From a virus: DNA of 64,000 nucleotides. Location of the stretch: positions 151,419 to 215,418 of the IMG/VR virus record IMGVR_UViG_3300048927_000250; one strand, given 5' to 3'. The notes under the pieces were generated by a model. It was not told where the DNA came from. It did no database searches and worked only from the letters and a program-made list of their open reading frames with translations. Positions 3,545-10,296 of the stretch are shown one piece after another (positions within the stretch are counted from its first letter, which is position 1; the number at the start of each line of letters is the position of its first letter). Position numbers and translations under genes: made by a program.

Positions 3545-5533
3545 CTAGACCACTTTCACCCCTTTCGTCTGCCAGTACTGATTCCACTTCTTGATGTTCA
3601 AGAACAGTGGGTCAAATGAATGGTTAGGACGAATGCGGTGAATGTAAGATTTCGGGTCAGCTATCATCTCGAACTGTCGTTCGTACGCCGCTTTCGCAGA
3701 CAAACTACGACCGCTCATGATGCGGGTTTGTGGTGCAAAGTGAATCCCGGTCCCGAGCTTCGGCAGACGGAAGTCGCCGTTTTTCGGGTCACGACCCATC
3801 ATGCAGTACAACACCAGTTCCACAATACCCAAGTTGACCGAGAACTTACGGTTGGTCATGTCACACACCAGTCGAATTGCACCGGCCAAGTTCACGGGGT
3901 CGGTCAGGTCACGGCGGAGTAACTCTTTACCGATGTCCGACGACATGAAGATGACCGATTTCAACTCTTCCATTTGCTCCAGGGTTGAACCACGGCGTTC
4001 CGGGAAGCGCAGGATGATTTCTGCGTTGTCCCAGTTCATCAGGTCAACCTCAATATATTTGCCGACGGTTTGGAAACCAAAGTCGCGCATATATTGGAGG
4101 AACTCTTTGGTCAGGAATGGGCGGTAGGAGCCACGGCTGACAGGGACGATGTCCATTTTCTGGTTCTTATCCCCGTTATCAATAACGAGAACAATTTCCT
4201 TAATCGTGGAGATACGGGACAAGTCACCGTCTTTCAGTTCGTTAAAGATGGAGATATCTGCCAGACGGAAGATGTCACTCACATCGAAACGGACTTTAAC
4301 GTGCTTGCCCCAAAGGTCCCTGGAAAGCGTTATCTCCTTATCGTCACCGAGGTTGGAGATGTACTTCAGTTCGTGGTCATGAATCACGTACGATTCTGAC
4401 TCCGCAGAGACCAGGTGGTGTTTGGTGGAAATAACGTCCTGTGATACGGCTTCGTTCTGGGTAACCGTCAGGGCGAAACCAGGGTTGGTGTCGTCCTGTA
4501 CCCGCGACGCATTCTCACAAAGACAATACTTACACACCACACCGTCTTCTGGATGCTGGCACTTCGACGGTGTACGCATTCGAATCACGGTACCCACTAA
4601 GTGGTTATCGTAACCTTTCCCGCGCACCATCTTCAAATCGCCATCCCGGTCAAAGTAATACTTGCCCGGTAAGACGTGTTCCAGGTCATCCTTCGTGACT
4701 TTCCACGGGATGGTTTCTTTCGACCCACAGTCTTGCTGGTCAACGCCGTGTACGACGTAGGTTATCAGCTGAAGTTCGCGGTTATAGTACTCAGTACGTT
4801 TAACCGGTTCACTCGTGGCTAACTGGGCTTGTGCAGCAGAGCAACGGTCCATTGCGGAGAAGGACAGTCGTTTCAGGTGTTCCGAGAACCCAACCGGAAT
4901 CGGGTTAACGAAGATACGCTGGTTAATCTCGCTACGGAAGCCCACCTTGTCGACCACCTGTAACAGCTGACCGGTTTTGGTCATCGAGTTACGGTGTGGA
5001 ATGGCCAGGTTATTGTGGTTCAGGCTCGGGTCATGGGAGAGGATATACACGAACTCTTTATAGCCGTTCGAGATATCGCGTTTCCCGGTTATCGGCCGTT
5101 CACGAATCTCCTTCAATTGTGGATGGCGGTGAATCTCCAGGAAGTCGAGGGCGTCGAGTGTGGTTTGGAACTCTTCGCCATCGGTTGCAATCGCATTGTG
5201 CAGCGCTTGCGTTATCCCGGCGTTGATTTTGTAAACGTTCTGGCGGTCTTCCAGCGGATACTCCGCATAGACCTGTTCAGCAGCACGTTGGTGCAGCTTG
5301 TTCTCCAGACCTTTACTCAACGGTTCACCGTAGACGTGGTTCTTAATGCAGAGCGGTATCGACGGGTACTGACGATGATACTCCCAGAAATACCAACTGA
5401 TTAAGGTTTGTGGGAAGTCAGCAATGATTTCCCCGTCGGCAAAGATTAGGGCGATAGGCTCGAGGTCATCGAGCCGTGCCCATATTTGTCGCTCACTCCA
5501 ATGCAGAATATCATCGGCGTAGAAAGTGCGCAT
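3545..5533 (-). CDS. RNA polymerase beta' subunit, C-terminal part (non-virion RNAP, phiKZ gp74-like)
   Basis: This 662-residue protein aligns by eye to the C-terminal half of bacterial beta'. NPIPVGFSEHL at about 210-220 and the following segment down to DCGS near 268-271 match the trigger-loop region and its downstream DDCGT. A Cys cluster CQHPEDGVVCKYCLC at 325-339 replaces the zinc site. PGFALTVTQNEAVSQDV at 351-367 matches GEAVGVIAAQSIGEPGTQ. It therefore supplies trigger-loop elements, while the catalytic aspartates are in the separate protein coded at 18134-19543. The ATG has GAGGAG upstream, located in the acidic-tail codons of the beta gene ending 2 bases before. Synteny points to the non-virion enzyme. 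Confidence 0.88.
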   Translation of the reverse strand: MRTFYADDILHWSERQIWARLDDLEPIALIFADGEIIADFPQTLISWYFWEYHRQYPSIPLCIKNHVYGEPLSKGLENKLHQRAAEQVYAEYPLEDRQNVYKINAGITQALHNAIATDGEEFQTTLDALDFLEIHRHPQLKEIRERPITGKRDISNGYKEFVYILSHDPSLNHNNLAIPHRNSMTKTGQLLQVVDKVGFRSEINQRIFVNPIPVGFSEHLKRLSFSAMDRCSAAQAQLATSEPVKRTEYYNRELQLITYVVHGVDQQDCGSKETIPWKVTKDDLEHVLPGKYYFDRDGDLKMVRGKGYDNHLVGTVIRMRTPSKCQHPEDGVVCKYCLCENASRVQDDTNPGFALTVTQNEAVSQDVISTKHHLVSAESESYVIHDHELKYISNLGDDKEITLSRDLWGKHVKVRFDVSDIFRLADISIFNELKDGDLSRISTIKEIVLVIDNGDKNQKMDIVPVSRGSYRPFLTKEFLQYMRDFGFQTVGKYIEVDLMNWDNAEIILRFPERRGSTLEQMEELKSVIFMSSDIGKELLRRDLTDPVNLAGAIRLVCDMTNRKFSVNLGIVELVLYCMMGRDPKNGDFRLPKLGTGIHFAPQTRIMSGRSLSAKAAYERQFEMIADPKSYIHRIRPNHSFDPLFLNIKKWNQYWQTKGVKVV

Positions 5534-5535
5534 TC

Positions 5536-7074
5536 TTACTCCTCTTCATCGGAATAGTCGTCGTCGCTGTCGTCTTCGGAGTCGTCGTCTTCACTGGACT
5601 CTTCTTCCGTTTCAACCACGCTATCCTCAGGAACGATGTCGTCTTCTTCCTCTTCAGCTTCTTCTTCCGGGTCAATGGGTACTGCCACCGGTTGAGCCAC
5701 ATCAGGCGGAATCCCTAAACGGTCCACGTCGAAGTACGCAAACTGAGCGCCTGCGCAATACATCGTGTTGTTCAGGTAACTCAATGCCAGGGAATTCCCG
5801 ACCGGAATCTCTTCACGGTCCACAACACGCTCAATGTCAGTTGGGCGGTCTGTGTTCATGATGTTACTGAAGATTTGATACAAGGCTTTCGGGTTGTTCG
5901 GACGGTCTACCTGGTCGGCCATATACTCGCCACCCAGAATACCTGCCTGGTTACGTACCTCGGCCTCACCCATCAGACGGATTGCCTGATAACGCCACGG
6001 GAGTGCATGGCGGTCTTTCTGCGACATCTTCGCCGGAACCCCATGAACCTGGCGACGCGGTGCATCGACGGCGGACCAGTCGTGACCCGTTTTCTCCAGG
6101 ACAATCATGTAGTTAGCACCGATACGAATCTTGCTGCGTGTACGACGGAGGTCACCCTTCTCGTTGTAGAACGTTACCGGACCGTAATCTGACGGGAACC
6201 GGTCTTCGATGTCACCTACGCCTTCCACCCCGATGTTCTGAGTGTGGGACGGTAAGTAAATGTACATCATGTCTTCAACGACCGAGTTCACATGACGCTT
6301 CACGCGGCGAATGTCGTTACCCATCCCGTTGAACTCAATCAACTTATCGTAGAACGGTTTGGACAACACTTCGTAGAACGACATCAGCAGTTTGTACGCT
6401 TCCCGATAGCCATCGTCAGAACTGTCACGTTTAATCATTTCACGGACGCGTTCTTCCATGCGCATACACTGGAAGTTGTAATACTGCTCGAACACTTTCG
6501 GCGGGTTCATACGGTTGATGGAGACAACTGGAGCAGACAACACTTCAGCTACCACGCCGTATTGGTCCATCGGCATTTGTTCGCGCTTCAGCACTTTACA
6601 AATAACCCCTTTGTCACCCCAGCACCCGGTTGCTTTGAACCCGATGGTTGGTACGACGTCGTAGGTGTATTTGATGACGATACGGCAGGTGTTCAGCTGC
6701 TGGCCGTTGTAGTTAGGGACCAGCTTCAGGCGACCCAGTCCTGGCATCTCACTGGTGGCACCCGCAGAGTCACGAATCAGACGCGAGAACTTCTTAGAGA
6801 ACTTCGGCGTCTTGTTGACCTTACGGTTGTCACGGATGATTTTATCGTAGGCGTCCAGGATACGCTTGTGATACTGACGACGGGCGTTATCGAAACGCGT
6901 TACGTCATCGGTTGGCGTCATCCCTTGTTCTTCCGGCGTCGGCTGCTGTTCCAGCGGGTCGTTTTCCGGTTTCCAGACTTCCACGTCAATCACACGAGCA
7001 TTGCGGGTGTGCGCCTCAATGTAGACGAATTCATCGAAGAAGTAATCGAGTTGCATAATATATTTAGGTGACAA
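5536..7074 (-). CDS. RNA polymerase beta subunit, C-terminal piece with polyacidic tail (phiKZ gp73-like)
   Basis: GCWGDKGV at 150-157 matches the bacterial beta GRHGNKGV, INRMNP near 186-191 matches SRMNIGQ, and the segment around 338-400 ending PWRYQAIRLMGEAEVRNQAG matches the QRFGEMEVWAL region. This is therefore the beta part that helps form the active site and clamps. The frame opens directly after the TAG of the upstream beta piece and in the same frame. The listed start is TTG at 7074, with GGTGGG 6 bases upstream. An ATG at 7056 lacks a clear ribosome site. The last 48 or so residues are almost only Asp, Glu and Ser, which bacterial beta lacks. Confidence 0.85.
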   Translation of the reverse strand: MSPKYIMQLDYFFDEFVYIEAHTRNARVIDVEVWKPENDPLEQQPTPEEQGMTPTDDVTRFDNARRQYHKRILDAYDKIIRDNRKVNKTPKFSKKFSRLIRDSAGATSEMPGLGRLKLVPNYNGQQLNTCRIVIKYTYDVVPTIGFKATGCWGDKGVICKVLKREQMPMDQYGVVAEVLSAPVVSINRMNPPKVFEQYYNFQCMRMEERVREMIKRDSSDDGYREAYKLLMSFYEVLSKPFYDKLIEFNGMGNDIRRVKRHVNSVVEDMMYIYLPSHTQNIGVEGVGDIEDRFPSDYGPVTFYNEKGDLRRTRSKIRIGANYMIVLEKTGHDWSAVDAPRRQVHGVPAKMSQKDRHALPWRYQAIRLMGEAEVRNQAGILGGEYMADQVDRPNNPKALYQIFSNIMNTDRPTDIERVVDREEIPVGNSLALSYLNNTMYCAGAQFAYFDVDRLGIPPDVAQPVAVPIDPEEEAEEEEDDIVPEDSVVETEEESSEDDDSEDDSDDDYSDEEE

Positions 7075-7833
7075 CTACAACCCACCCAGGATATCGTCGT
7101 GCTTACGCATTGCCAACAACAAACCGTCTTGTCGAATCCTGTCACCCGGTTCCGGGATAAGTTTCTGACGGTCTATCGTACCGTTCACGTTCAACAGGTA
7201 GTGGTCTTTCGGTACGTTAATTGCCACGGTACCAAAGCCACGAGATTTTGCTCGTTCGCACCATTCGTCCATGACCACAAATCCGTCTTCAGTAGTATAC
7301 GGATGGGACATGGTGGCAGTTGTCGTCAGGAGACCTGGACGCCAGATGCCGTATTCATCAATTGACGGAGATTGCGCCAGCGTTGCCCCTGCCTGGAATG
7401 CGCCACCACGGTGGGCTTGTTCCAATGCTTTGAGGTTCAGCTTCTGCTCATATCCGAAATTGTTATGATGCGAGACGTATTTGTCCACGTGCACGATATC
7501 GTATTCTTCTTTCTTACGGTTAAACACGACGTACGTGGTGCGTGGGTTTGTTGTGAAAGCGCCAAGACCTTGCCCAACATTGAACTTTTCGATTTTTTCA
7601 ATGATGTCCATTGGGTCTTTGATTTTGGTCTTCCAGGTATACTTACCATACTCGCGGCCAACTCCGGTATAAAACCGGTCGCGGGTACAGCCTTCAATCA
7701 CCAACGCTTGGGGTAACTGACTACCCCACATTATCAAACGCGAGGCTGACACACCGCCCATCCATGGCAGCAAGTTACACGCCAGTCCCGTTAGTTCGGT
7801 ATAGAGTTGATTCTCATTGGCTAGAGTACTCAT
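7075..7833 (-). CDS. RNA polymerase beta subunit, middle piece (phiKZ gp71-like)
   Basis: This 252-residue protein corresponds to the middle of bacterial beta. LPWMGGVSASRLIMWGSQLP at about 22-41 matches the [20 protein letters not shown] region. SHPYTTEDGFVV at 176-187 matches the GYNYEDAI loop, with the conserved Glu-Asp pair at 182-183. It ends GDRIRQDGLLLAMRKHDDILGGL and a TAG, the point where beta continues with the flap, and the next piece starts at once in the same frame. In phiKZ this subunit is joined from gp71 and gp73 by an intron, but no intron sequence is present here. The gene is first after an early promoter and has AAGGA before the ATG. Confidence 0.85.
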   Translation of the reverse strand: MSTLANENQLYTELTGLACNLLPWMGGVSASRLIMWGSQLPQALVIEGCTRDRFYTGVGREYGKYTWKTKIKDPMDIIEKIEKFNVGQGLGAFTTNPRTTYVVFNRKKEEYDIVHVDKYVSHHNNFGYEQKLNLKALEQAHRGGAFQAGATLAQSPSIDEYGIWRPGLLTTTATMSHPYTTEDGFVVMDEWCERAKSRGFGTVAINVPKDHYLLNVNGTIDRQKLIPEPGDRIRQDGLLLAMRKHDDILGGL

Positions 7834-7868: not shown

Positions 7869-7876
7869 GTAATATA
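7869..7876 (-). promoter_or_regulatory. Early promoter of the RNAP beta operon
   Basis: The minus strand reads TATATTAC-CGTA-GTGA, an exact match to the phiKZ early box plus a shared downstream GTGA. It lies about 36 bases before the beta start codon. Confidence 0.75.
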
Positions 7877-8937: not shown

Positions 8938-10296
8938 TTAACGACGCCAGCCGCCGCGTCCACGGTCGCGACTGCGGTCATCACGTACGGATTCACCCCA
9001 GTCACGGCTGATACCGGAGGAGGTGGTTTCACGTGCATCATCGCGTCCACGCCCGCGGTCATCTTCGCGGTCACGGCTATAGCGGTCGTCACGGTCACGT
9101 TCACGACCACGGCGGTCGTCGTAATCATCACGGCTGCGACCACGGTCACGACTGTAACGACTGTCGCGGTCATCGCGGTCGTCATCACGCCCACGTCCAC
9201 CCCAGTTACCACCACGTCCACCACGGTCATCGTCACGTTCGTCACGACGTCCGCCACCCCAAGAGGCACGACGAGGTTCATCACGGCTACCACGATTGTC
9301 CGTATAACGGTTTCCGCCACGGCTGTGCTGGTCACGGAGTTCACGACGTTCTTCACGTCCTTTCTCTTTGGCCAGACGGTCCTTCTCTTCCTTCAGCGTC
9401 CCTTCGTCCGCTTCCCCTTCGTTACCCGGCAGAGAGGATGGAATGTCTAAACGGTAATCGTTCAGCATTGACATCTCTTTCGTCCAGTTGGTCGGGATAA
9501 TCCAGGCTTTCAGCGCCGGGTTATAGGACTCAAAGATTTTGAGCTGTGCGTTGATGTCTTTCGCCACACGGCTGTAGGCCATCATTAACGCATGGAAGTT
9601 TGGAGCCACCGGTGAATTCGACCCGTAGTTGTAATGCAGGTCGGCTTCGTCGATACCCGGCAGGATGTGACGAATCAGCTTGAAGAAAGCTTCTTTGTCA
9701 GAGACCCGTGCCAGGTTCTTACCGTAGATGGCTTTACCGCCGGTGTACTCTTCATCCATCACGGGGAAGGACACGGAACACAGACGTGCCACTTCTTCGC
9801 CTTTCCAGGTACCGTTACGACGCACGAACAGGTTGATGAGGGCTTTCTCCTCACCGTCCATGTTCTTCAACAGAACGTCTTTGATACCTTTATAGGTGCG
9901 CTCGTCCGCATCTTCCATCAGACGCAGGAAGCCTTTCTGTTCGGTGGTAACCTGAGAATGCTGCTCGGTTTCCGCCGCCAGTTTGCTCATGGTCAGAATC
10001 AGTTCAGTCAGTGCGCCGTTCAAATGGTGTTGTGCCATCTTCACGGTACGTTCATGAATCAGAGACTTCTTACGAATCAGGTTCTCACCGAGCGGATGGA
10101 ATGCCCAGAAGTTATCCCAGTCTGGGTCAGCCAGGAACTCTTCGGTTGGGACACGCAGTTGCTTCCCTTCGATGGTGAAGGGGATGTTAACCCCCTCCTG
10201 TTTCAGCGTTACGAAGCCGGTGTCGTCAACTGACAGTCCAATGGCAGTAAGGACTTGACCGTAAAACTTCGCAATAGGTTTCTTTTTATCGGACAT
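8938..10296 (-). CDS. Conserved phiKZ-region protein with a long Arg/Asp-rich disordered tail
   Basis: The 452-residue product has a folded part (about 1-290) and then some 155 residues made almost only of Arg, Asp, Ser, Gly and Tyr, with blocks such as RDDDRDDRDSRYSRDRGR. Its charges nearly balance, and it ends RDRGRGGWRR. The DNA of the tail is built from short repeated units. Mixed-charge RD/RS tails bind RNA or drive condensation in other systems. The gene sits between the gp69-like protein and the RNAP beta gene. By position it would correspond to phiKZ gene 70. Function is unknown, but an RNA- or polymerase-linked role fits the neighbours. Confidence 0.75.
   Translation of the reverse strand: MSDKKKPIAKFYGQVLTAIGLSVDDTGFVTLKQEGVNIPFTIEGKQLRVPTEEFLADPDWDNFWAFHPLGENLIRKKSLIHERTVKMAQHHLNGALTELILTMSKLAAETEQHSQVTTEQKGFLRLMEDADERTYKGIKDVLLKNMDGEEKALINLFVRRNGTWKGEEVARLCSVSFPVMDEEYTGGKAIYGKNLARVSDKEAFFKLIRHILPGIDEADLHYNYGSNSPVAPNFHALMMAYSRVAKDINAQLKIFESYNPALKAWIIPTNWTKEMSMLNDYRLDIPSSLPGNEGEADEGTLKEEKDRLAKEKGREERRELRDQHSRGGNRYTDNRGSRDEPRRASWGGGRRDERDDDRGGRGGNWGGRGRDDDRDDRDSRYSRDRGRSRDDYDDRRGRERDRDDRYSRDREDDRGRGRDDARETTSSGISRDWGESVRDDRSRDRGRGGWRR

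Follow-up and report, generated by a model that had tools for sequence, protein, structure and literature searches.

An amber codon within a 32-bp tract of ten substitutions interrupts the nvRNAP β gene of one PhiEaH1-like phage record and probably does not mark an evolved gene split

The IMG/VR record IMGVR_UViG_3300048927_000250 comprises 215,418 bases, and the window analysed here, a stretch of 64,000 nucleotides, corresponds to its bases 151,419–215,418. The record is a strain of the giant Erwinia phage PhiEaH1, with 98.7% identity over the RNA-polymerase locus and about 97–99% identity over most of the genome, some stretches being more diverged. On the minus strand, positions 5536–7833 of the window form one frame of 765 codons that is cut by a TAG without any insertion. 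As the sequence-only reading had stated, this amber codon at 7075–7077 divides a β subunit gene and the same frame resumes at 7074 with no gap, which is evident from the open reading frames running from 7833 to 7075 and from 7074 to 5536. The genes concerned are:

7075..7833, minus strand: first part of the C-terminal β gene of the non-virion RNA polymerase (nvRNAP), ATG 7833, 252 codons plus TAG, orthologous to PhiEaH1 gp008 residues 1–252 and to phiKZ gp71-73
5536..7074, minus strand: second part of the same gene, in frame with the first, running from TTG 7074 to the stop over 512 codons
3545..5533, minus strand: next gene, an intact β′-like nvRNAP subunit, phrog_3015, corresponding to PhiEaH1 gp007

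Both parts matched phrog_3295, the first with E=5e-86 over profile positions 2–253 and the second with E=2e-144 over positions 257–693, while the intact PhiEaH1 protein matched the profile over its full length (E=1e-240). The intact homologue also matched phiKZ gp71-73 (PDB 7OGP chain C, 7ogp_C) with E=1e-84. On the basis of these matches, the gene is assigned as the phiKZ-type C-terminal β subunit of the nvRNAP. It is followed by the β′ piece (3545–5533) and then by a helicase gene, an order that was derived from the phrog_3015 match and from the annotation of PhiEaH1 gp007 and gp006. The β piece ends in a tail of roughly 50 residues that is almost purely acidic (5536–5690, minus strand); such a tail is present in Moabite and FBKp24 and absent from SPLA10, PCH45, Goslar and phiKZ gp73. 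In the same region, positions 8938–10296 (minus strand) encode a protein of 452 amino acids with a long tail rich in Arg, Asp, Gly and Ser (RGRDDDRDDRDSRYSRDRGRSRDDY...), which had no Pfam match and is syntenic with the hypothetical PhiEaH1 gp012.

The same gene, with 765 codons and the same neighbours, is found in two sister phages as PhiEaH1 gp008 (YP_009010061.1) and vB_Ea277G WBF04838.1, the proteins being about 99% identical. In contrast to the record, it is uninterrupted in both of them, with GAG at codon 253. A Gln or Trp codon in relatives had been proposed as the sign of a recent split, but neither occurs there; the codon is one for Glu in an intact gene, and the stop itself, which had been sought in close relatives, is absent from both sisters. 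The gene is also uninterrupted at the TAG site in ten more distant IMG/VR relatives, so that neither these nor the two sister isolates point to a split common to relatives. Among the phage records, 272 of 284 matched in one place with a coverage of at least 80%, and no break at the TAG site was found in the named phages examined. No close relatives of the record were present among the records returned from IMG/VR and bacterial genomes.

The TAG reported by the sequence-only reading is indeed there in the record, but that reading had overlooked its company, since ten substitutions lie together in 32 bp:

7075..7077, minus strand: in-frame amber TAG, replacing GAG (Glu253) of PhiEaH1 and vB_Ea277G
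7053..7084, minus strand: 32-bp substitution tract that holds the TAG, with ten changes against both sister phages

In the sense direction, the sisters read GGC GGT GTG GAG TTG TCG CCA AAA GAG ATG ATG GAA and the record reads GGT GGG TTG TAG TTG TCA CCT AAA TAT ATT ATG CAA. The tract contains no indels, has clean flanks and remains identical to the sisters in register at 22 of its 32 positions. Four of the changes fall on first, none on second and six on third codon positions, and they result in four synonymous codons, four missense codons and one stop. On either side, the record next differs from PhiEaH1 at 6739 and 7153, and 7102 is the sole additional nearby difference from Ea277G. Neither sister carries any of the ten substitutions; PhiEaH1 and Ea277G have the same base at each of these sites, which makes the tract a derived state of this record. 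On a background below 2.5% divergence, no other 32-base cluster is as dense over the 210 kb that were compared of the 215-kb record, and ten changes are clustered here far more than chance would allow. In a set of 155 fully covered ORFs of at least 150 amino acids, no known gene other than this one had a clean nonsense mutation. Simulated tracts with ten such changes contained a stop codon in 61% of cases. Hence, the cluster suffices to explain the TAG, and no further cause has to be assumed.

Several possible sources of the tract were searched for. The rest of its own genome shares no identical stretch of at least 12 bases with the tract, and no external donor was found by exact DNA or by the peptide pattern LSPKYIMQLD, nor was there any convincing match by blastn against phages and plasmids with E up to 10. 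A template-switch or hairpin origin was rejected as no convincing local inverted repeat was present and the fold z-score was 0.38. On the plus strand, 12 bases (ATTTAGGTGACA) resemble what we assume to be the SP6 promoter sequence; the bases that follow fail to match, and the likeness was taken as coincidence. The length of 32 bp had suggested CRISPR escape, which would not explain a stop. Elsewhere in the record and outside the window, exact inversions relative to PhiEaH1 were seen at record coordinates 86191–86196 (CCGAAA to TTTCGG, L009) and 144736–144740 (TTTTG to CAAAA, L012). Small hairpin loops seem to flip between strains, and a comparable inversion distinguishes PhiEaH1 from Ea277G.

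The kind of substitutions in the tract is unusual. Transversions account for 8/10 changes, while their share is 21% where divergence is low (Fisher p=1.3e-4), and A/C or G/T exchanges for 6/10 compared to 11.6% (p=3.6e-4). The tract begins inside a GGGCGG motif. HiSeq miscalls consist to 56% of A/C or G/T exchanges and are nearly always substitutions and not indels. They may crowd together in read tails of low quality and occur at error-prone positions that are preceded by G-rich motifs, e.g. GGG, CGG and GGC (PMC3334598). The spectrum thus differs from natural divergence and resembles platform error, as would be expected from a local sequencing or assembly error. Some observations speak against an error. 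By our reading, indels specific to the contig are almost confined to its diverged stretches, and outside the tract the contig is clean; clusters rich in A/C and G/T exchanges are present in diverged regions as well. Tracts without second-position changes were rare in simulations (P about 0.04), and their lack here together with the four synonymous codon changes gives a hint of coding constraint.

The downstream half of the gene is under purifying selection. Outside the tract, 14/14 codon differences from PhiEaH1 downstream of the stop are synonymous (P about 1e-7 if this part were untranslated), and upstream of it 7/8 are. The downstream half must therefore have been translated for practically the whole time since the two phages diverged. 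It follows that, unless the second half is produced on its own, the stop would have to be very recent or be missing from the actual phage.

The second half could be initiated at TTG 7074, though less convincingly at ATG 7056. TTG 7074 is preceded by GGTGGG, as had been noted before, but the site is not as weak as it was then called: its anti-Shine-Dalgarno duplex energy is −6.3 kcal/mol compared to a median of −6.0 kcal/mol for 48 PhiEaH1 genes. The ATG at 7056–7054 has no Shine-Dalgarno match, in agreement with the earlier statement that it lacks a ribosome site. In an AlphaFold model (pLDDT 59), a strand at residues 238–244 is followed by a linker at 249–265 and then by the flap strands, so the TAG site looks like a linker in this prediction. 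The claim that the break falls at the start of the β flap is borne out with modest confidence, the modelled position being just before the flap; the assignment of the flap at this site follows in part what we take to be the arrangement in E. coli β.

The promoter-like element that had been described as spanning this ATG is present. It and its putative counterpart upstream of the gene are located as follows:

7055..7062, minus strand: TATATTAT octamer, created by the tract, overlapping ATG 7056–7054
7869..7876, minus strand: TATATTAC of a likely genuine early-promoter motif, 36 nt upstream of the β gene start

TATATTA[CT] occurs in 14 copies in the record, nearly always intergenic and mostly with TGA five bases further on, as in TATATTAC-N5-TGA at the β gene. 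The combination is often located 34–51 nt upstream of gene starts (7869–7876 on the minus strand, 13463, 29297, 36610, 48769, 52054 and others). TATATTA[CT]-N5-TGA is likely the early-promoter motif of this phage, judged by its positions, and presumably resembles that of phiKZ. At 7055–7062, the octamer is present and the downstream TGA is missing. Simulated tracts contained TATATTAT on the sense strand in about 1.3% of cases, a suggestive figure that has to be read with the octamer having been noticed after the fact.

Taken together, the tract is probably an error in the local consensus or a defective allele of very recent origin and not the mark of an evolved gene split, given that the sisters are intact, the cluster is unique, its spectrum is odd and the part after the stop shows purifying selection. 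Of the three readings that had been offered before, namely two chains, read-through or a mutation or error, the last one is favoured here, while read-through found no support. A real recombination tract is unlikely. Here, a very short piece from a diverged relative would have brought in the stop, or the stop would have arisen within it, in a defective or minor haplotype. PhiEaH1 and Ea277G do differ by 32-base clusters of 6–8 changes on a near-identical background (e.g. PhiEaH1 69038, 91429 and 103332), which hints at recombination between relatives over very short tracts, and the tract in the record is likewise homologous in register and free of second-position changes. On the other hand, about 70% of the changes in such natural low-background clusters are transitions by our count as opposed to 2/10 here, searches by DNA and by peptide pattern recovered no donor, and a conserved polymerase gene would not be expected to keep a stop. 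That ribosomes stop at the TAG and re-initiate at TTG 7074 (or ATG 7056), the two β chains then assembling as phiKZ-type β and β′ fragments already do, is considered distinctly improbable. Stop and start are adjacent in the same frame, the energy of the TTG is close to that of the median gene, the linker before the flap that contains the break is poorly conserved, the downstream half is free of decay, and the RNA polymerases of jumbo phages are already split into several polypeptides (PMC7598289). Nevertheless, both sister phages are intact and no family member examined is split at this site, nine other substitutions accompany the stop where a simple split needs none, and the absence of decay fits equally well to a very recent stop or to one missing from the real phage.

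A version in which the whole tract is functional, having ended β before the flap, placed a start beside the stop and TATATTAT over the downstream ATG and so turned the flap half into an extra chain, draws on the rarity of the octamer in simulated tracts and the near confinement of TATATTA[CT] to promoter positions otherwise; it is regarded as very doubtful. Full-length β by amber read-through or recoding of TAG would agree with the frame being open past the TAG and with the selection on the downstream half, but it has little probability since no tRNA or suppressor tRNA gene was found in the 215-kb record, TAG is the ordinary terminator of 4/48 PhiEaH1 genes and no other clean in-frame TAG occurs among the known covered genes. 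For the latter two reasons, a reassignment of TAG was rejected. An event related to a group I intron or a homing-endonuclease site is brought to mind by the orthologous phiKZ gene, which is interrupted with further ORFs between its two parts, and the sequence-only reading had pointed to the self-splicing intron that joins the two parts in phiKZ. This comparison does not hold. In phiKZ, gp71 has HGG393 as its last residues and the chain continues from the conserved active-site Lys, which equals PhiEaH1 residue 407/408, placing that junction 154 residues downstream of Glu253; the TAG at residue 253 does not interrupt the conserved GG/KGV active-site codon. The break was correctly described as free of any insertion, and no intervening sequence with an endonuclease ORF or group I RNA is present. 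Moreover, a search with Rfam over the window and the record's first 140 kb detected no structured RNA including group I, and two families of homing endonucleases (GIY-YIG and HNH_3) had no match in the record. Such an origin is extremely improbable.

If the tract is indeed an error or a recent defect, the phage species would make the C-terminal β piece as one chain of 765 amino acids, and ten substitutions, either wrong or very recent, would have entered a single record within 32 bp immediately before the flap, among them the change of the Glu253 codon to TAG. Low-quality read tails at a G-rich trigger might have entered the assembly and produced a local consensus error; in the other version, a very recent allele would have broken the gene. 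Between the two, sequencing error is favoured by the substitution spectrum. A split, if true, would add a new breakpoint to a family of RNA polymerases known for its unusual fragmentation, caught in a single strain. A lone nonsense codon in an environmental phage record should not be taken as a split before its neighbourhood has been inspected for clustered changes and sister genomes have been compared.

With regard to known systems, phiKZ gp71-73 (PDB 7OGP chain C) is the orthologous C-terminal β piece and its gene is also found in two ORFs. It differs in the nature of the break, which is an intron-type insertion at the active-site Lys in phiKZ, whereas the record has a TAG 154 residues earlier and no insertion. 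The C-terminal part of β from the AR9 nvRNAP (PDB 7S00 chain C) is a distant homologue (E=5e-16) and a single solved chain across the site equivalent to the TAG. The closest likeness of the tract itself is to the error-prone regions of Illumina reads (PMC3334598), both being dense, restricted to substitutions, dominated by A/C and G/T exchanges and close to a G-rich motif; judged by the HiSeq profile, the tract may be one such region.
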